Shown: positions 20,949-63,980 of the stretch, in pieces
Position numbering within the stretch: the first letter of the stretch is position 1
How the letters are laid out: every line of letters begins with the position of its first letter
Source of the DNA: Carboxylicivirga sp. M1479
Lineage (GTDB): Bacteria; Bacteroidota; Bacteroidia; Bacteroidales; Marinilabiliaceae
Length of the DNA: 64,000 nt
Assembly (NCBI RefSeq): GCF_007097485.1
Contig: NZ_VKDE01000002.1
Location: forward strand, 186,001 to 250,000
Reading direction: 5' to 3'
Made by a program: the position numbers and the translations under genes
The notes under the pieces: model-generated
Told to the model about the DNA's origin: nothing
Database searches by the model: none
Seen by the model: only the letters and a program-made list of their open reading frames with translations

Positions 20949-22319
20949 ATGAAAAAAATTGTTGCCAAGTTCGGAGGCTCCAACCTTAAGAAAAAGGAAG
21001 ATATCCAAAAGCTAGTACGTGTGATCAAGACATATGACCGACCAATGGTTATTGTTGTATCTGCTTTTTACGGTATTACGAATCATCTGATTAAGTCCAT
21101 GGAAGCAGTGCAAGAGGAAGAATCCAATATTGAGAAATTAGGTCATTTTCTTAAAGAATTAAAAAAAGAGGCGATTCTTGAGAACTTTGAAGATAAAGAA
21201 TGGCAGGATAAAACCTTATGCGCCGTTCAATCACGCATAAAAGAATTAAATAGGTATCTAACCGGTATTCATTACATTGGTGATGTTCCCGATTTTGTGG
21301 GTGATGTTATTTTAAGTTATGGCGAGCGTTTAAGTTCACTGGTGCTGACATCTATTTTGCAAAGCAAGAGCATAGATGCCGAAGAGGTTTTGCCTGAGCA
21401 GATGCCTTTGGTTACTGATGGTGAATTTGGTAATGCCACGGTTAATTTTGATATATCAACACCAAATGTTCAAAAGCGTCTGGCTGGTAATAAAATATAT
21501 GTGGTACCTGGTTTTTACGGAGTATCAGAGCAAGGGAAAATTACCTTATTAGGCAGGGGAGGAAGTGATTATTCTGCCGCAGCCTTGGCGCGTTGCTTGG
21601 ATGCGGAGTCTTTAGATGTGTGGAAGGATGTTGATGGCTTTTTGAGTGCTGATCCAAAATTGGTGAAAACGCCCCAACGTGTAACGCATCTGTCCTATGC
21701 CGAAGCAGCTGAATTATCCTATTTTGGCGCTAGCATTCTTCATCCTCGAACAGTGGAGCCTTTAAAAGAGGTGGGTATTCCAATTCACATTGGAAATATT
21801 GATGCTTTTACCGATAGTGTGAAGCCAAGGACGGTGGTGCATGGTAAGGAAACAGTTAGTGAATGCATTATTAAAAGCGTTACCTATAGCGATGATTTTT
21901 GCATTTTAAAATTACGCGGAGCGGGAGTTGGTGTTAAAAAAGGGGTTCTTGCTAAAGTAACGGTGGCGCTCGATAAGGCGGGCATAAATATTAAATCTGT
22001 TATTACTTCGCAAATCGTTATTAATTTATTATTGGCCGAAAAGGATATCAGACGGGCCTATAAGATTGTGGAAGAATTAGAACTATCTTCTATCACAGAG
22101 TTGATTGCTAGTGAGCAAATGTCGACGATTGCTGTTGTTGGCGAAGGTTTGTTAGATGCTCCTGGTGTATCGGGGCGTTTGTTCATGTCTTTGGCTAAGC
22201 GTTCTATCAATGTGGAGATGATTGTTTCTGGAGCATCGGCGGTGGCAAGTTATTTTATGGTGTCGAACAAAGATCGAAATGCTGCCATCGAAGCCATTCA
22301 TGAAGAGTTTTTTAGTTGA
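20949..22319 (+). CDS. lysC: Aspartate kinase, monofunctional with ACT domains
   Basis: A 456-residue aspartate kinase. The nucleotide-binding start is KFGGSNLKK (residues 5-13; KFGGT/S in the family). Further on are the RGGSDYSAAALA catalytic region and WKDVDGFLSADPK. Tandem ACT domains occupy roughly residues 310-456 (ILKLRGAGVGVKKGVLAKV, and IAVVGEGLLDAPGVSGRLF). It phosphorylates L-aspartate in the first step to lysine, threonine and methionine. It has no homoserine dehydrogenase domain, so it is not the ThrA fusion. The SAM riboswitch upstream ties this isozyme to methionine demand. Confidence 0.93.
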   Translation: MKKIVAKFGGSNLKKKEDIQKLVRVIKTYDRPMVIVVSAFYGITNHLIKSMEAVQEEESNIEKLGHFLKELKKEAILENFEDKEWQDKTLCAVQSRIKELNRYLTGIHYIGDVPDFVGDVILSYGERLSSLVLTSILQSKSIDAEEVLPEQMPLVTDGEFGNATVNFDISTPNVQKRLAGNKIYVVPGFYGVSEQGKITLLGRGGSDYSAAALARCLDAESLDVWKDVDGFLSADPKLVKTPQRVTHLSYAEAAELSYFGASILHPRTVEPLKEVGIPIHIGNIDAFTDSVKPRTVVHGKETVSECIIKSVTYSDDFCILKLRGAGVGVKKGVLAKVTVALDKAGINIKSVITSQIVINLLLAEKDIRRAYKIVEELELSSITELIASEQMSTIAVVGEGLLDAPGVSGRLFMSLAKRSINVEMIVSGASAVASYFMVSNKDRNAAIEAIHEEFFS

Positions 22320-57049: not shown

Positions 57050-57679
57050 ATGAGTACAATAACACAAAATGCACAATCACAGTCGAGTATAACGCCCGGT
57101 AAGGCCATTGAATTATTAAAAGAGGGAAATAAGCGTTTTTTAGCAGCTAAAGCTTTAAATCGTGATTGGCATCAACAAGTGAAAGAAACAGCCACAGGTC
57201 AATATCCATTTGCTGCTATTGTTAGTTGTATCGATTCGCGTATACCAACAGAAGTCGTTTTTGATCAAGGTATTGGAGATGTATTTAATGCACGTGTTGC
57301 AGGTAATATTGTTAATGAAGATATACTTGGAAGCCTTGAGTTTGCATGTAAGCTAGCTGGTGCAAAAAGCATTGTTGTTTTGGGTCATACTTCATGTGGT
57401 GCAGTTAAAGGCGCTTGTGATAATGCACAACTTGGCAACTTAACACAAATGCTTGATAAAATTAAGCCCGCTGTTGACTTAACACCAACTGCCGATGGTG
57501 AAGAAAGAAACTCTGGCAATATTGGTTTTGTCAATAAAGTGGCGGATAAAAATGTAGAGTTAACCATTGAAAATATAAAATCGCAAAGTACAGTACTAAA
57601 TCAGATGCTAGAAGCAGGTGAGATAAATATTGTAGGTGCTATGTACGATGTGAAAACAGGAGAAATTACCTTTAGTTAG
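57050..57679 (+). CDS. Beta-class carbonic anhydrase
   Basis: A 209-residue zinc enzyme. The ligand motifs CIDSR (Cys60, with the Asp62-Arg64 dyad) and GHTSCG (His113 and Cys116) are complete. It interconverts CO2 and bicarbonate and would sustain bicarbonate flux through the adjacent SulP protein. There is no clear signal peptide, so it is cytoplasmic. The ORF ends immediately before a convergent small frame on the other strand. Confidence 0.93.
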   Translation: MSTITQNAQSQSSITPGKAIELLKEGNKRFLAAKALNRDWHQQVKETATGQYPFAAIVSCIDSRIPTEVVFDQGIGDVFNARVAGNIVNEDILGSLEFACKLAGAKSIVVLGHTSCGAVKGACDNAQLGNLTQMLDKIKPAVDLTPTADGEERNSGNIGFVNKVADKNVELTIENIKSQSTVLNQMLEAGEINIVGAMYDVKTGEITFS

Positions 57680-57817
57680 TTATGTTCCCGGATTGAATGT
57701 TATCTGTTCCTGAGTTAATTGACATTCAATCCATTTAATTTTACCTGAGTGGGGTGGTTCGATTTCAGACGTGATTTCGACCCACCTTTTTTGTTTTAAA
57801 TCATCGAAATATACCTG
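57680..57817 (-). CDS. Possible small protein convergent with the carbonic anhydrase gene
   Basis: A 45-codon frame starting at ATG 57817, with protein-like text (QVYFDDLKQKRWVEITSEIE then a C-terminal ITFNPGT). A longer TTG-started version reaches 57952 (90 codons), but its 5' part would overlap the trp promoter. A perfect 11-bp hairpin (57690-57732) lies in its 3' end. It may be genuine, a decayed gene or coincidence. The function is unknown. Confidence 0.35.
   Translation of the reverse strand, partial: QVYFDDLKQKRWVEITSEIEPPHSGKIKWIECQLTQEQITFNPGT
57690..57732 (+). terminator. Hairpin after the carbonic anhydrase gene
   Basis: GGATTGAATGT and ACATTCAATCC form an 11-bp stem around a 21-base loop, 11 bases past the stop. 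Only scattered T follow, so it may stabilise the 3' end rather than terminate strongly. Confidence 0.45.
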
Positions 57818-57897: not shown

Positions 57898-57930
57898 TTT
57901 GGTTTTTAAAATTATTATTCCAAATATTTG
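57898..57930 (+). promoter_or_regulatory. Candidate promoter of the trp operon
   Basis: TTTG at 57898-57901, 21 bases, then AATATTTG at 57923-57930 (one mismatch to TAnnTTTG). Transcription would start near 57937, about 19 bases before the trpL ATG. Confidence 0.45.
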
Positions 57931-57955
57931 TGACGAACAATTGCAAAAGCAAAAC

Positions 57956-58018
57956 ATGAATTTGATTTTAACACATAAAGGCTGGTGGCATTATACTTTT
58001 CTTTCCAACGAGAGTTAA
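57956..58018 (+). CDS. trpL: trp operon leader peptide with tandem Trp codons
   Basis: A 20-codon frame starting at ATG 57956 and ending with TAA at 58016-58018. It reads MNLILTHKG, then TGG TGG at 57983-57988, then HYTFLSNES. Two adjacent tryptophan codons in a short frame immediately upstream of trpE are the hallmark of a translational attenuator. The stop codon overlaps an antiterminator segment (58009-58016), so the leader ribosome position can be read by the RNA fold. The frame is too short for usual gene calling. Confidence 0.85.
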   Translation: MNLILTHKGWWHYTFLSNES

Positions 58019-58083
58019 GGGGAACCGTCGTATATATAAAATATGAACAAAGGCTTACCGAAACTCTCGGTAAGCCTTTTTTT
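58009..58083 (+). promoter_or_regulatory. trp attenuator: antiterminator segment plus terminator hairpin
   Basis: The terminator hairpin (58049-58080, arms AAGGCTTACCGA and TCGGTAAGCCTT, loop AACTC) ends in seven T at 58077-58083, 22 bases before the trpE ATG at 58106. The eight bases CGAGAGTT at 58009-58016 are complementary to AACTCTCG at 58062-58069, inside the terminator loop and 3' arm. A ribosome stalled on TGG TGG leaves 58009-58016 free to pair there and destroy the terminator. A ribosome that reaches the stop codon covers that segment and termination follows. Free tryptophan thereby lowers trpE-B transcription. Confidence 0.8.
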
Positions 58084-58105
58084 ATTTCATAAATTTAACC
58101 AAACC

Positions 58106-59521
58106 ATGGATACAATAACAATCAAAACAACTGCAACTCCCATACCAGCTAATGTAGCCGATGTAACCACTCCGGTAAGTTTATACCTAAAGCTGAGAGA
58201 TGCATACCCTAATACTATTTTATTGGAAAGTAGTGATTATCATGGAAGTAGTAATTCTATGTCATTTATTTGTTTCAAACCATTGTATGAGTTTGTGGCC
58301 GACAAGGGGCAGGTTTTACAAGGGGAAGCACACAAAGAGCTTCAGCCGATAAGCATTACTAAAGAAAATAATGTGCCAGAGCTTTTGGATGCTTTTATAA
58401 AAAGCTTTGAAGTGGATAATGCCAATTGCCCGGTTAAGGTGAATGGATTATTTGGGTATTCAACCTTTGATGCCGTTCAGTATTTCGATTCTTTAAACTT
58501 CAGCGCAGAAAAAAAGGAAGAACACTCAATACCCGAATTACGATATGCATTTTATAAATACATTATTGCTTTTAATCATTTCACTAATCAGTTGCATCTG
58601 ATTGAGAATTTGCAAGAGGGAGAAGAATCGCAGAGTAATGCTTTAATCGATCAGTTTTACAACCGCTCCATACCAACCTTTCAGTTTCAACCATCCAATA
58701 ACGAGAAATCAAACCTCACGGATGAAGAATACATGAACATGGTGACCAAAGGAAAGGAACATTGTTTCCGGGGAGATGTGTTTCAGATAGTCTTATCGCG
58801 TCAGTTTCGTCAGCAGTTTTCGGGTGATGAGTTCAATGTTTATCGTGCCTTGCGTAACATTAACCCTTCGCCTTATTTGTTTTATTTCGATTATGGTAGT
58901 TATAAAATATTTGGTTCATCGCCCGAAGCACAATTGATTATTGAAAATAATGTTGCAACAATCAATCCTATTGCAGGCACTTTTAAACGTACTGGCGATG
59001 ATACAAAGGATCAGGAATTAGCCATTCAATTAAGTAAGGATGAAAAGGAGAATGCAGAGCATGTGATGCTGGTTGATTTGGCTCGTAACGATTTGAGTCG
59101 TAACTGCCAGGATGTAACTGTGAATACCTACAAAGAAGTGCAATACTATTCTCATGTACTACACCTTGTGTCTGATGTGAGTGGTAAACTGCAAAAAGGG
59201 TCCATTGCTTCGCGCGTAATGGCCGATACCTTTCCGGCAGGCACACTATCTGGCGCTCCAAAATACAAAGCCATGCAATTGATCGACTCCATTGAAAACC
59301 AAAATCGCAGCTATTACGGTGGCTGTATTGGTAACATTGGCTTAGATGGAAGTTTCAATCAGGCCATTATGATACGTTCATTTCTGAGTAAAAACAATAC
59401 TTTGTTTTACCAGGCTGGTGCGGGCGTAGTGAGCGAATCAAAAGAGGAGAACGAATTAAATGAAGTCAACAACAAGTTAGGTGCCTTAAAAAAGGCCATT
59501 CACATGGCTGAGGAGTTTTAG
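58106..59521 (+). CDS. trpE: Anthranilate synthase component I
   Basis: A 471-residue enzyme from ATG 58106. An earlier in-frame ATG at 58043 would encode the terminator arms, so it is rejected. The LLESS motif (residues 39-43) is the tryptophan feedback site. The catalytic domain shows GSSPEAQLI, AGTFKRTGDD, LSGAPKYKAM and IGLDGSFNQAIMIRS. With TrpG it turns chorismate and glutamine into anthranilate. It is the first structural gene after the attenuator. Confidence 0.94.
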   Translation: MDTITIKTTATPIPANVADVTTPVSLYLKLRDAYPNTILLESSDYHGSSNSMSFICFKPLYEFVADKGQVLQGEAHKELQPISITKENNVPELLDAFIKSFEVDNANCPVKVNGLFGYSTFDAVQYFDSLNFSAEKKEEHSIPELRYAFYKYIIAFNHFTNQLHLIENLQEGEESQSNALIDQFYNRSIPTFQFQPSNNEKSNLTDEEYMNMVTKGKEHCFRGDVFQIVLSRQFRQQFSGDEFNVYRALRNINPSPYLFYFDYGSYKIFGSSPEAQLIIENNVATINPIAGTFKRTGDDTKDQELAIQLSKDEKENAEHVMLVDLARNDLSRNCQDVTVNTYKEVQYYSHVLHLVSDVSGKLQKGSIASRVMADTFPAGTLSGAPKYKAMQLIDSIENQNRSYYGGCIGNIGLDGSFNQAIMIRSFLSKNNTLFYQAGAGVVSESKEENELNEVNNKLGALKKAIHMAEEF

Positions 59522-59637
59522 GTTAACTTGTAAGGAGAAACGAATTAAACCAACAAGTTTGGTTTTAAACAAGCAAACTTAATTTAACCAAGCTGTTTGA
59601 CTCAAAGGAATAGCCAACAGCATCAAGCTTAGAAATT

Positions 59638-60222
59638 ATGAAAATTTTAGTCCTAGATAATTACGATTCATTCACTTATAACCTTGTTCATTACGTTGAG
59701 GAAATTATAAATGAAAAGGTAGATGTATTTCGTAATGATGAAATAAGCATTGCCGATGTGGCCAATTACGATAAGATATTGTTATCGCCAGGTCCTGGTA
59801 TACCGGAAGAGGCTGGTATTTTAAAAGAGCTAATTGCTAGCTATGCCTCAAGCAAAAGTATATTAGGTGTATGCTTGGGTTGTCAGGCAATTGCTGAAGT
59901 ATTTGGCGGGAGTATTCGCAACTTAAACAAGGTATACCATGGGGTAGCTACTCCGGTAAGTGTGCTTGATCAAAACGAAATACTATTTAAAGGACTTCCA
60001 GATACTTTTAAAGCAGGACGTTACCATAGTTGGGTGGTTAACGAGGAGGATTTGCCCAAGGAGCTAACCATCACTTCAAAAGAGGCTGAGGGGCAAATAA
60101 TGGGTTTACGACATAAAGACTATGATGTGCGAGGAGTGCAATTTCATCCTGAATCGGTATTAACCGAACATGGAAAAGAAATGATTAGAAACTGGATAGA
60201 AAATACAGCAACTAGCCTTTAG
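59638..60222 (+). CDS. trpG: Anthranilate synthase component II (glutamine amidotransferase)
   Basis: A 194-residue class I amidotransferase. LLSPGPGIPEEAG (about 48-60), the nucleophile Cys79 in GVCLGCQAIAE and the His170-x-Glu172 pair in QFHPES form the catalytic triad. The residue after GVCLG is Cys rather than the usual His. It supplies ammonia from glutamine to TrpE. It is separated from trpE by 116 bases of AT-rich DNA. A PabA role is also possible. Confidence 0.9.
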   Translation: MKILVLDNYDSFTYNLVHYVEEIINEKVDVFRNDEISIADVANYDKILLSPGPGIPEEAGILKELIASYASSKSILGVCLGCQAIAEVFGGSIRNLNKVYHGVATPVSVLDQNEILFKGLPDTFKAGRYHSWVVNEEDLPKELTITSKEAEGQIMGLRHKDYDVRGVQFHPESVLTEHGKEMIRNWIENTATSL

Positions 60223-60290
60223 CTGTGTTTCCTTGCTACTTAAATTTGAATATCAACCAAACGCTAGCTGCTTAAAGCTGGTTCCCAGAT

Positions 60291-61298
60291 ATGAATAGTA
60301 TGAGTATAAAAAATATCATCAAACAATTAATTGATCACAAATTCCTTTCGCGCCAGGAGGCTAAAGAGGTATTAATAAGTATTGCCAAAGAAGAGTACAA
60401 CCAATCGGAGGTAGTGGCTTTTCTTACGGTTTTTATGATGCGTCCCGTAACTGTTGAAGAACTTTCTGGTTTTCGTGATGCTCTTCTGGAATTGTGCATT
60501 CGCATTAACTTATCAGACTATCGAACCATTGATATGTGTGGAACAGGGGGCGATGGACAGAATACCTTTAATATTTCTACCCTTGCATCCTTGGTGGTAG
60601 CTGGTGCGGGTGCAAAAGTATCTAAGCATGGTAACTACGGCGTGTCCTCCTCTTGTGGATCATCCAATGTAATGGAGTATTTAGGTTATAAGTTTACTAA
60701 CGATGAGGATCTGTTGAAGCATCAGTTGGATAAAGCGAATATATGCTTTTTACACGCGCCCATGTTTCATCCAGCCATGAAGGTGGTAGCTCCAATTAGA
60801 AAAGAGCTTGGCCTGAAAACTTTTTTTAATATGCTGGGGCCTATGGTCAATCCATCATTTCCACAGCATCAGTTGGTAGGTGTGTTTAGCCTGGAACTGG
60901 CCCGCGTCTATCAATATATTTTTCAACAGACTAATAAGGGTTATACCATTTTACACGCGTTGGATGGCTACGACGAAGTTTCGTTAACGGGTGATGTAAA
61001 AGCCATTAGTAATAATGAAGAGCAAGTTTATTCGCCTGCAGATTTTGGTATGCGTCAGATAAAAGCCAATGAAATTTTTGGTGGTGATACAGTGCCCGAG
61101 GCAGCAGCCATATTTAAAACAGTATTAAATGGCGAGGGAACAGAAGCCCAGAGTAATGTGGTGATTGCCAATGCAGCTATGGCTTTAAATTGCTATTATC
61201 CCGATCGCAGTATGGAGCAGAACATTGTTGAAGCACGCAAGTCGCTATTGGAGGGGAAGGCAGCACAAGTATTAACCACTCTATTGAGTTTATCTTAA
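60291..61298 (+). CDS. trpD: Anthranilate phosphoribosyltransferase
   Basis: A 335-residue enzyme. The PRPP loop CGTGGDGQNTFNISTLAS and the KHGNYGVSSSCGSSNVMEYLGY region are diagnostic. It transfers phosphoribose from PRPP to anthranilate, the second step to tryptophan. ATG codons at 60291 and 60300 are both possible starts. It is part of the trp operon. Confidence 0.94.
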   Translation: MNSMSIKNIIKQLIDHKFLSRQEAKEVLISIAKEEYNQSEVVAFLTVFMMRPVTVEELSGFRDALLELCIRINLSDYRTIDMCGTGGDGQNTFNISTLASLVVAGAGAKVSKHGNYGVSSSCGSSNVMEYLGYKFTNDEDLLKHQLDKANICFLHAPMFHPAMKVVAPIRKELGLKTFFNMLGPMVNPSFPQHQLVGVFSLELARVYQYIFQQTNKGYTILHALDGYDEVSLTGDVKAISNNEEQVYSPADFGMRQIKANEIFGGDTVPEAAAIFKTVLNGEGTEAQSNVVIANAAMALNCYYPDRSMEQNIVEARKSLLEGKAAQVLTTLLSLS

Positions 61299-61308
61299 GC
61301 TAGTAATC

Positions 61309-62106
61309 ATGAACATCCTGAATAAAATAGTTGATCAAAAGAAAATAGAAGTAGAGAATGCCAAAAAGACAAGGCCCATTGAGCAGTTGATGGACATACC
61401 TATGTTCTTTGAAGCCGTTCCATCTTTAAAAAACTCAATAAGCTGTCATAGCAAAACAGGTGTTATTACCGAGTTTAAACGTCAGTCGCCCTCAAAAGGC
61501 CTTATTAACGGAACAGCTAAGGTGGAAGAGGTGGTAAAAGGCTATGAGGAGGTTGGTTCATCGGCTTTGTCGGTGCTGACTGATACGCAGTTTTTTGGTG
61601 GATGCAACGACGACTTAAGCGCTGCACGCAAGGTGACAAGCATACCAATTTTGCGCAAAGATTTTATTATTGATCCTTATCAGGTATATGAAGCTAAGGC
61701 CATTGGAGCCAGTGCAATTTTATTAATCGCTGCCATATTGGAAGAAAATCAGGCCAAAGAATTGGGTGCGTTAGCCAATTATTTGGGCATGGAGGTGTTA
61801 ATGGAATTGCACGAGCCAGATGAAGCATCGCGCCTTAATGCTTTTGTTGATGTGGTGGGGATTAATAATCGTAACCTAAAAACTTTTAAGGTTGATTTGA
61901 AGCAGTCCATTGCTTTGGCCAAGTCGTTACCATCCGACAAATTAAAGATTTCGGAAAGCGGTATTCATTCGCCTAAGGATGTTCATTTTCTTAGAAGACA
62001 TGGCTTTGATGGTTTTTTAATTGGCGAGAACTTTATGAAAACCGATAATCCAGGTAAGGCTTTTGCCGATTTTGCCAAAGAAATAAAGGTTAAAGAGAAA
62101 GTTTAG
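61309..62106 (+). CDS. trpC: Indole-3-glycerol phosphate synthase
   Basis: A 265-residue TIM-barrel enzyme. Family residues are visible in VITEFKRQSPSKG, SALSVLTDTQFFGG, PILRKDFIIDPYQVYEA, GINNRNLKTFKVD and ISESGIHSPKDV. It closes the indole ring, releasing CO2 and water. It is not fused to TrpF, unlike E. coli TrpC. Only 10 bases follow trpD. Confidence 0.95.
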   Translation: MNILNKIVDQKKIEVENAKKTRPIEQLMDIPMFFEAVPSLKNSISCHSKTGVITEFKRQSPSKGLINGTAKVEEVVKGYEEVGSSALSVLTDTQFFGGCNDDLSAARKVTSIPILRKDFIIDPYQVYEAKAIGASAILLIAAILEENQAKELGALANYLGMEVLMELHEPDEASRLNAFVDVVGINNRNLKTFKVDLKQSIALAKSLPSDKLKISESGIHSPKDVHFLRRHGFDGFLIGENFMKTDNPGKAFADFAKEIKVKEKV

Positions 62107-62151
62107 TAAGTCATCAGGCAGATAAAAAACTTAACGCTATTGATTAATGTG

Positions 62152-62787
62152 ATGATGAACCAAAGCCCCAAAATAAAAGTATGTGGCATGCGCAACGACG
62201 AGAATCTTGCAGCATTGTTAGAGTTAAAGCCCGATTATGTAGGTTTTATTTTCTACGATAAATCGCCACGTTATACTGATAGTAGGCCTCAAGTGAATAT
62301 TCCATCCACTGTAAAAAAAGTGGGGGTGTTTGTTAATGCCAGCGAACGAACAATTAATGAAAAGCGTATTCAGTTTGGCTTAGATATTATCCAGTTGCAC
62401 GGCGATGAATCGCCCGAATTGTGTTTTTTACTTAAGCAAACAGGCGTGCAAGTGATGAAAGTGTTCAGGGTGGATGAGACTTTTGATTTTCAGCAGACTC
62501 GCCGTTACCAGGATTACTGCGATTATTTTTTGTTCGACACACAAACGAAAGCCTTTGGCGGCAGTGGTAAAAGGTTTGATTGGCGTTTGTTGAAAAATTA
62601 TAACCAGGCTCGTCCGATGTTTTTAAGTGGCGGCATTGGACCCGATGATGTGAATGACATTCGCCAGATTACCGAGCTGAATATAAAAGCCATTGATGTG
62701 AACAGTAAGTTTGAAACGGAACCAGCTCTTAAGAATATAGAATTACTGTCCGAGTTTATGAGTGAAATAAGGAAAACAGAAGCATAA
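62152..62787 (+). CDS. trpF: Phosphoribosylanthranilate isomerase
   Basis: About 211 residues from ATG 62152 (a nearby ATG at 62155 and a TTG at 62140 are alternatives). [39 protein letters not shown] and [11 protein letters not shown] are characteristic, with the catalytic Cys in the first motif. It is a free-standing TIM-barrel isomerase. Its stop codon overlaps the trpB start by one base (TAATG). Confidence 0.93.
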
Positions 62788-63980
62788 TGAGCAAGCAAAA
62801 TAAATACCATGTAGATGAGAAAGGCATGTATGGCCAGTTTGGAGGGGCTTACATTCCCGAAATGCTATATCCCAATATTGAAAACCTAAAAGCTGTTTAT
62901 AAAGACATCATCGGCTCTGATGCTTTTCAAGATGAATACAAATCTTTGTTAAAAGATTATGTCGGACGCCCATCGCCTTTGTATTTGGCCAAGCGTTTAT
63001 CAGAAAAATACCAAACCAATGTATATTTAAAGCGTGAGGATTTAAACCATACTGGCGCGCATAAGATAAACAACACCGTGGGGCAAATTTTAATTGCCAA
63101 ACACATGGGTAAGCAACGCATTATTGCCGAAACGGGTGCTGGCCAACATGGTGTGGCAACCGCCACAGCCTGTGCTTTAATGGGTTTACAGTGCGTGGTG
63201 TACATGGGAGAGGTTGATATAGAACGTCAGGCACCGAATGTGGCTCGTATGAAGATGTTGGGCGCAGAGGTTGTTGCGGCCACTTCAGGCAGTAGAACCT
63301 TAAAGGATGCTACCAACGAAGCCTTGCGCGATTGGATTTGTAACCCTGAAGATACTTTTTATTTGATTGGTTCAGTGGTTGGGCCGCATCCATATCCTGA
63401 TATGGTGGCACAATTACAAGCCGTTATCAGCGAAGAAATTAAGCTGCAGATTGCCGAGAAAACCAATAAAGATTATCCCGATTATGTGATTGCTTGTGTG
63501 GGAGGAGGCAGTAATGCAGCAGGTTCGTTTTATCATTTTTTAGACGATGAGCGTGTTCAATTGGTAGCTGTTGAGGCTTCGGGTATGGGTGTTGATTCAG
63601 GAGAAACAGCAGCAACCATTGCTAAGGGCGATAAAGGTTTGATACACGGAAGCCTTACCTTTTTAATGCAAAGCAACGATGGACAGATAACTGAGCCTTA
63701 TTCTATTTCAGCAGGCTTGGATTATCCTGGTATTGGGCCGCAACATGCGCATTTGTTTGATACGGGTCGCGCACAGTTTTTGTCGGCTACCGATAAGGAG
63801 GCCTTAGATGCAGCATTGCAGTTAACACAGCTGGAGGGCATTATACCAGCCTTGGAATCGTCGCATGCTTTGGCTGCACTTGATAAAATGAGCTTTAAAA
63901 AAGACGATTCAGTGGTTATAACACTATCGGGCCGAGGAGATAAAGACATGGCGACTTATATGAAACGCTTTGGCTTTTAA
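62787..63980 (+). CDS. trpB: Tryptophan synthase beta subunit
   Basis: A 397-residue PLP enzyme of the TrpB1 type. The PLP lysine is in [10 protein letters not shown], and the phosphate-binding glycine loop is [12 protein letters not shown]. The N-terminal [13 protein letters not shown] and the [14 protein letters not shown] motif are typical. It joins indole and serine to tryptophan with TrpA. The trpA gene would lie to the right, since the window ends 20 bases after this stop and no trpA sequence is recognisable here. Confidence 0.96.

Follow-up and report, generated by a model that had tools for sequence, protein, structure and literature searches.

The 64,000-nt stretch of Carboxylicivirga sp. 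M1479 DNA analyzed here (the window) carries, ahead of trpE, what is very probably a ribosome-mediated attenuator controlling transcription of the trp operon; it most probably shares ancestry with the Rfam Bacteroid-trp leader. The case is a convincing one for a trp attenuator of known kind with a topological variant, and its anatomy, conservation, covariation, constant distance from the Trp codons to the antiterminator strand and folding order were established by computation (Table 1). The original prediction had placed a leader ORF with adjacent TGG TGG codons in this region, and that ORF is present in the sequence. The intrinsic terminator had been given a 12-bp stem and a T tract ending 22 bases before trpE; the spacing from the end of the T tract at 58083 to the trpE ATG was correct, and the stem was found to contain 13 bp. 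An octamer at the leader stop codon had further been described as complementary to a segment of the terminator, and the two strands proved to be exact 8-nt complements, with a helix score that was matched by shuffles of the same region at a frequency of 0.003 (300 shuffles). None of the pairs of this antiterminator helix involves the 5′ arm of the terminator; five involve the loop and three the 3′ arm. Folding of positions 58019-58088 gave a z-score of -5.88.

Table 1. Features of the trp leader region, numbered from the first letter of the window.
Feature	Positions	Strand	Basis or detail
Promoter-like motif	57898-57930	+	TTTG, ~21-nt spacer, AA-TA-TTTG; sequence
Leader peptide ORF, 20 codons, MNLILTHKGWWHYTFLSNES (predicted)	57956-58018	+	ATG 57956, TAA 58016-58018
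Weak counterpart of the anti-antiterminator hairpin	57980-58029	+	GGC-U-GGU 57980-57986 with ACC-GUC 58024-58029; centroid fold
Regulatory Trp codons TGG TGG, proposed stall site	57983-57988	+	Sequence
Antiterminator 5′ strand CGAGAGTT	58009-58016	+	Folding, complementarity, covariation
Intrinsic terminator (predicted)	58049-58083	+	13-bp stem 58049-58061/58067-58079, loop 58062-58066 AACTC, T's to 58083
Antiterminator 3′ strand AACTCTCG	58062-58069	+	Terminator loop and top 3 nt of the terminator 3′ arm
trpE	58106-59521	+	First gene of the proposed operon trpE-G-D-C-F-B (to 63980)

Model matches for trpE, trpG, trpD, trpC, trpF and trpB coincided with the ORFs that run from 58106 to 63980, at the end of the window. 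Those for the trpG subfamily, trpD, trpC and trpB lay over the model cut-offs; the best model for trpE, TIGR00564, scored 412.5 bits, below its cut-off of 517.7, and the trpF match was also below the cut-off of its model. TrpE shares 88% identity with its counterpart in Carboxylicivirga sediminis. The 5′ neighbor of the trp region is a gene of the carbonic anhydrase family that ends at 57679. Between this gene and the trp leader an imperfect hairpin followed by a T run was seen at 57753-57786 (9 of 10 pairs, 14-nt loop), and it is probably the carbonic anhydrase gene's own terminator; note that it was read by eye and is unlisted by the terminator scan, which took loops of 3-8 nt only. The promoter-like motif departs by one mismatch from what we take to be the Bacteroidota-type promoter consensus, and the transcript start is guessed to lie near 57937. 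A similar motif was found 5′ of the leaders of close relatives, and a loose promoter regular expression matched 19 of 30 leaders with poor discrimination, which makes it weak evidence. Elsewhere in the window, a SAM riboswitch (RF00162, 20703-20801, 70.2 bits) precedes the ORF at 20949-22319, which resembles an aspartate kinase, a name given by inspection alone.

Conservation of the leader was explored in 60 genomes (own included), of which the 46 with a strong full-length TrpE match made up the set examined. The scan applied near the window sought ORFs of 8-40 codons that begin with ATG and include a Trp run, with an intrinsic terminator behind them. Such a uORF and terminator were present before the trp genes in 44 of the 46 genomes, the window's own included, and this retention places the trp leader beyond chance. 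Lack of the Trp codons and of the octamer complementarity in relatives had been named beforehand as what would speak against the attenuator, and the comparison of relatives spoke for it instead. The leader lies a short way upstream of trpE save in four cases (L043, L046, L050 and L051), where it lies ~1.3-1.5 kb further upstream, past unannotated intervening sequence. No leader was returned by the scan for the remaining two genomes (L039 and L054), and both have a match to RF01692, the Rfam Bacteroid-trp model, below its cut-off (43.7 and 29.8 bits). The leader set comprised 45 leaders from the 44 genomes, with uORF matches in L021 and L053 excluded as not trp-like; one genome (G041, L040:111-389, minus strand) has tandem trp leader peptides before trpE, both with Trp-Trp-Trp and each with its own terminator. 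A set of one leader per genus held 30 leaders from 29 genera, and the permutation tests reported below ignore residual relatedness among genera.

In the alignment of the 45 leaders the second TGG (57986-57988) provided the sole invariant columns, and the peptide outside the Trp run varied. For the terminator, 11 of 12 consensus pairs showed changes on both sides that preserved the pair, and consensus folding of the same alignment yielded no structure besides the terminator. A looser class-wide search, in which GTG and TTG starts and W.W were allowed, covered 29 of the 49 class genomes positive for TrpE (the window's own among the 49), one of the 29 (L080) being of the window's order. A leader with a terminator was found at 19 of the 29 loci, with L055 and L062, which have less than 140 nt of upstream sequence, counted as misses, and at none of the 29 on the reversed strand.

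The pairing of the octamer was then considered across the leaders. When each leader was taken singly, a best-helix test gave p < 0.05 in 26 of 45 and a duplex-energy test in 32 of 45. In a swap test on the 30 leaders, strands scored 17.05 with their own partners and 11.78 with swapped partners (0/5000 permutations), and the result was again 0/5000 both in the window's family (17 leaders) and in the other families (13 leaders). Resolved by part of the terminator in the same 30 leaders, covariation with the antiterminator strand was found for the loop (0/5000) and the 3′ arm (7/5000) and not for the 5′ arm (3568/5000), and on this ground the classical 5′-arm antiterminator is rejected for the window's order. 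At least two antiterminator pairs fell in the 3′ arm in 24 of the 30 leaders and in the 5′ arm in six. On a plain MAFFT alignment, not fitted to structure, 66.1% of the octamer cells were paired and 34% unpaired. The cells paired, the doubly changed cells and the covariation score were each reached by 0/500 shuffles of this alignment, the other two of the five measures being within the shuffles (219/500 and 170/500), and register 0 was better than slides of 1-3 columns for both the percentage paired and the covariation score. Note that the swap test weighs more than the shuffles because kinship alone may beat shuffles without structure. Conservation in relatives and covariation together support the earlier proposal of a leader-peptide trp attenuator in which the octamer is the antiterminator strand. 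Among 19 leaders of the wider class, the whole apex covaried (0/5000) by way of the 5′ arm (13/5000), with no signal from the loop alone (920/5000) or the 3′ arm alone (1644/5000). The class leaders covary through the 5′ arm and those of the window's order through the loop and 3′ arm, which suggests that the side serving as partner has switched within the Bacteroidia.

The position of the antiterminator helix was constant with respect to the Trp codons. Its midpoint lay a median of 22.5 nt past the last Trp codon in the 45 leaders, and within 18-28 nt of it in 44 of them (the outlier being L041). Measured from the Trp codons, helix position had a standard deviation of 2.8 nt, compared with 6.8 nt when the stop codon was the reference and 17.5 nt for shuffled leaders, and the stop codons themselves were found anywhere from 9 to 42 nt past the Trp run. 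The stop codon is thereby ruled out as the ruler. The overlap of the antiterminator strand with the leader stop, which the original prediction had pointed out, is seen in the window; what is conserved is instead the distance to the Trp codons. In the 30 leaders the helix started 15-23 nt past the Trp run (search range 12-34 nt). A ribosome covers ~12 nt downstream of the translated codon, according to the relevant passage of PMC4833913, and the helix starts just past the edge of a stalled ribosome, which is a requirement of a stalled-ribosome sensor.

Folding of the window's leader at successive RNA ends gave a defined order. With the strand free, the antiterminator was dominant for RNA ends from 58068 to 58074, with a probability of 0.98-0.99 at 58070-58072, and the terminator was dominant from 58076. 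Masking of all positions upstream of 58031 left the terminator as the sole structure formed. A comparison of folds with and without the strand blocked had been proposed at the outset, and the antiterminator did appear at intermediate RNA ends only when the strand was free. In the window the full terminator is favored over the antiterminator at equilibrium, and therefore the switch must be kinetic. Some 13 nt of RNA lie inside the polymerase, so that a polymerase at 58083 exposes RNA to ~58070, inside the antiterminator interval. In such a model the choice between termination and read-through would be a kinetic one.

From this anatomy we infer translation of the leader, ribosome stalling, Trp dependence and termination near 58083. 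When charged tRNA-Trp is scarce, the ribosome would stall at TGG TGG and leave the antiterminator strand free ahead of it. The freed strand would pair with the apical loop and the top of the 3′ arm of the terminator as these are extruded by the polymerase, and this pairing would block nucleation of the terminator and allow trpE-G-D-C-F-B to be transcribed. When Trp is plentiful, the ribosome would reach the stop codon and cover the strand, and the terminator would form. It could be that a pseudoknot is involved, in which the lower 10 bp of the terminator are kept while the loop is captured, a structure beyond the scoring of the fold programs used.

The state of the leader in the absence of a ribosome was modelled in the same way. 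With a stalled ribosome the mean antiterminator probability was 0.91, and it was above 0.5 in 29 of the 30 leaders; low values even when stalled were obtained for L017 (0.16) and L022 (0.00). Without a ribosome the mean was 0.14, with a drop of more than 0.3 in 27 of 30. The real upstream piece gave 0.15 in this state and shuffled pieces 0.66; the real value was the lower in 27 of the 30 leaders (Wilcoxon p 1.6e-7), the others being L001, L014 and L048. In most folds the Trp run paired ~30-45 nt downstream (from ~20 nt in several other families), and a small inner hairpin held the antiterminator strand. The window itself gave 0.99 when stalled and 0.98 without a ribosome, and the group L001-L007, made up of the window and the relatives nearest to it in TrpE identity, gave 0.85-0.98 without a ribosome. 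Values above 0.5 in this state were also seen for L013, L042 and L048, and the near kin L011 and L016 gave 0.38 and 0.32, which became 0.14 and 0.57 when the start was slightly shifted. The exception made by L001-L007 is a prediction of the energy model. The upstream hairpin around the Trp codons is weak in the window and is predicted, as a strong one, in most of the other genera compared. A swap test applied to the Trp-run helix gave a weak signal (159/5000 for the 30 leaders, 2163/5000 for the window's family and 246/5000 for the other families), and has low power because the strand is mostly fixed by the Trp codons; in 13 of 45 leaders, the window not being one of the 13, the duplex energy of this helix was better than in shuffles at p < 0.05. 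The earlier idea that the switch needs no extra hairpin fits the window and its nearest kin in the fold model, but not the leaders at large, given the strong drop without a ribosome in 27 of 30.

These observations can be combined, tentatively and with somewhat less than even confidence, into a scheme in which the window's order uses apical capture, with the loop as a toehold from which the freed strand zips into the 3′ arm, and other Bacteroidia prefer the 5′ arm. In this scheme the anti-antiterminator hairpin has been lost from the nearest group in the genus, where a leader left untranslated would read through. If true, this default in the nearest group would be the opposite of that in E. 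coli.

Trp attenuation had initially been regarded as little described in the Bacteroidota. This view could not be upheld, as trp leaders of the phylum were already recognized in Weinberg 2010 and carry the Rfam entry RF01692 'Bacteroid-trp', according to the relevant passage of PMC2864571, and a kind undescribed in the Bacteroidota is ruled out by that family. RF01692 aligned end to end (model 1-131 of 131) to positions 57936-58059, with the window's start codon, Trp codons and terminator 5′ arm in the model register. The score was 29 bits, below the gathering cut-off of 49, with an E-value of about 0.13-0.19 (0.8 against the whole genome), and a better E-value was obtained over the terminator for Thr_leader (RF00506), which likewise scored under its cut-off. 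Across the 60 genomes (own included), RF01692 matches with E up to 1 were found in 39 and matches over the cut-off in two. The single match alone is insignificant; homology is argued because of the shared register of start codon, Trp codons and terminator arm together with the graded scores of the relatives. The window is thus a below-cut-off relative of RF01692, not a formal member. The model as aligned has one upstream hairpin and ends within the terminator 5′ arm, and it is thus without a complete terminator and without an antiterminator. The two genomes over the cut-off (G046, leader L051, and G054, leader L050) carry a loop/3′-arm antiterminator like that of the window. A description of a Bacteroid-trp antiterminator was not found in titles and abstract openings among the matches listed; subscription papers and supplements lay outside this scope, and absence is not claimed.

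The leader shares with E. coli trpL (NC_000913.3) a short Trp-Trp leader peptide, an intrinsic terminator and an antiterminator strand past the stall site. In E. coli, segment 2 pairs with segment 3, including the terminator 5′ arm, whereas the window's strand pairs with the loop and 3′ arm. It is unlikely that the window nevertheless holds a classic four-segment attenuator, with a 5′-arm antiterminator and a functional 1:2 hairpin through which an untranslated leader turns the operon off. The strand-hiding pairing of the Trp run predicted in most genera, where the majority hairpin resembles the E. coli 1:2 hairpin, speaks for such an arrangement, as does the leaning of wider-class leaders to the 5′ arm, but covariation in the window's order involves the loop and 3′ arm and not the 5′ arm. 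The window moreover has no 5′-arm pairs, and its hiding hairpin is weak and leaves the strand available without a ribosome, so that neither a 5′-arm antiterminator nor a 1:2 hairpin blocking antitermination was found there. The E. coli leader, folded likewise using segment coordinates that we take to be correct, gave 0.00 without a ribosome and 0.78-0.79 when stalled for RNA ends 119-128 (0.09 at 134 and 140); in the model, leaving out the ribosome abolishes the E. coli antiterminator and not that of the window.

The other two accounts considered dispense with the Trp codons as a sensor or with transcription attenuation by a stalled ribosome. A constitutive partial terminator that trims read-through, beside a decorative uORF with idle Trp codons, would agree with the terminator being the strongest structural signal and the sole product of consensus folding; it is nonetheless highly improbable, in that the Trp run is retained while other peptide residues vary and the antiterminator position follows the Trp codons, not the stop. 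Slightly less credence still is given to translational or protein-mediated control (TRAP, T-box or reinitiation type), for which no supporting point was found. At curated thresholds, neither a T-box nor any other Rfam family was matched in the trp leader, the SAM riboswitch being the window's single match, and the 87 nt from the leader stop to the trpE start exceed the reinitiation distances of 10-16 nt in the passage of PMC4833913 concerned.

Related arrangements have been described in other bacteria. Actinobacterial trp attenuators, as presented in the relevant passages of PMC1262725, likewise have a leader peptide with Trp codons, and an antiterminator and terminator before trp operons. The same passages describe conserved complementary triples common to antiterminator and terminator, which are taken as the usual 5′-arm arrangement. 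Within the Bacteroidota, strong clues to leader-peptide attenuation before amino-acid operons have been reported for Flavobacterium psychrophilum (PMC9723704), in passages that contain no trp case and no antiterminator topology, and this kind of attenuation is also suggested for Bacteroides thetaiotaomicron by a passage on sORFs that resemble leader peptides (PMC7366714).

The present data suggest that leader-peptide trp attenuation is widespread in the Bacteroidia and commoner than is reported by the RF01692 cut-off, because in the same 60 genomes only two matches exceed that cut-off, whereas 44 genomes have a leader and terminator. The leaders also form a natural series in which the antiterminator partner and the default state vary while the Trp-codon ruler is fixed, and this series permits a clean test of whether attenuators pre-empt the 5′ arm or block apical nucleation of the terminator.

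Comparable leader ORFs were seen before other amino-acid genes in uncontrolled scans. At least one His-run leader ORF with a terminator was found before hisG at 20 of 21 loci. Tandem His-attenuator candidates, with two His-run ORFs each followed by a terminator, were present at 10 of these 21 loci, namely L102 in the window's own genome (G000:C43, near 266564, outside the window), L089, L090, L092, L093, L094, L097, L098, L100 and L103. Similarly, an Ile/Leu/Val-rich leader ORF with a terminator lay before ilvD at 17 of the 21 loci L105-L125, including L117 (G000:C13), and here many of the antiterminator candidates seem to pair with the 5′ arm and loop.
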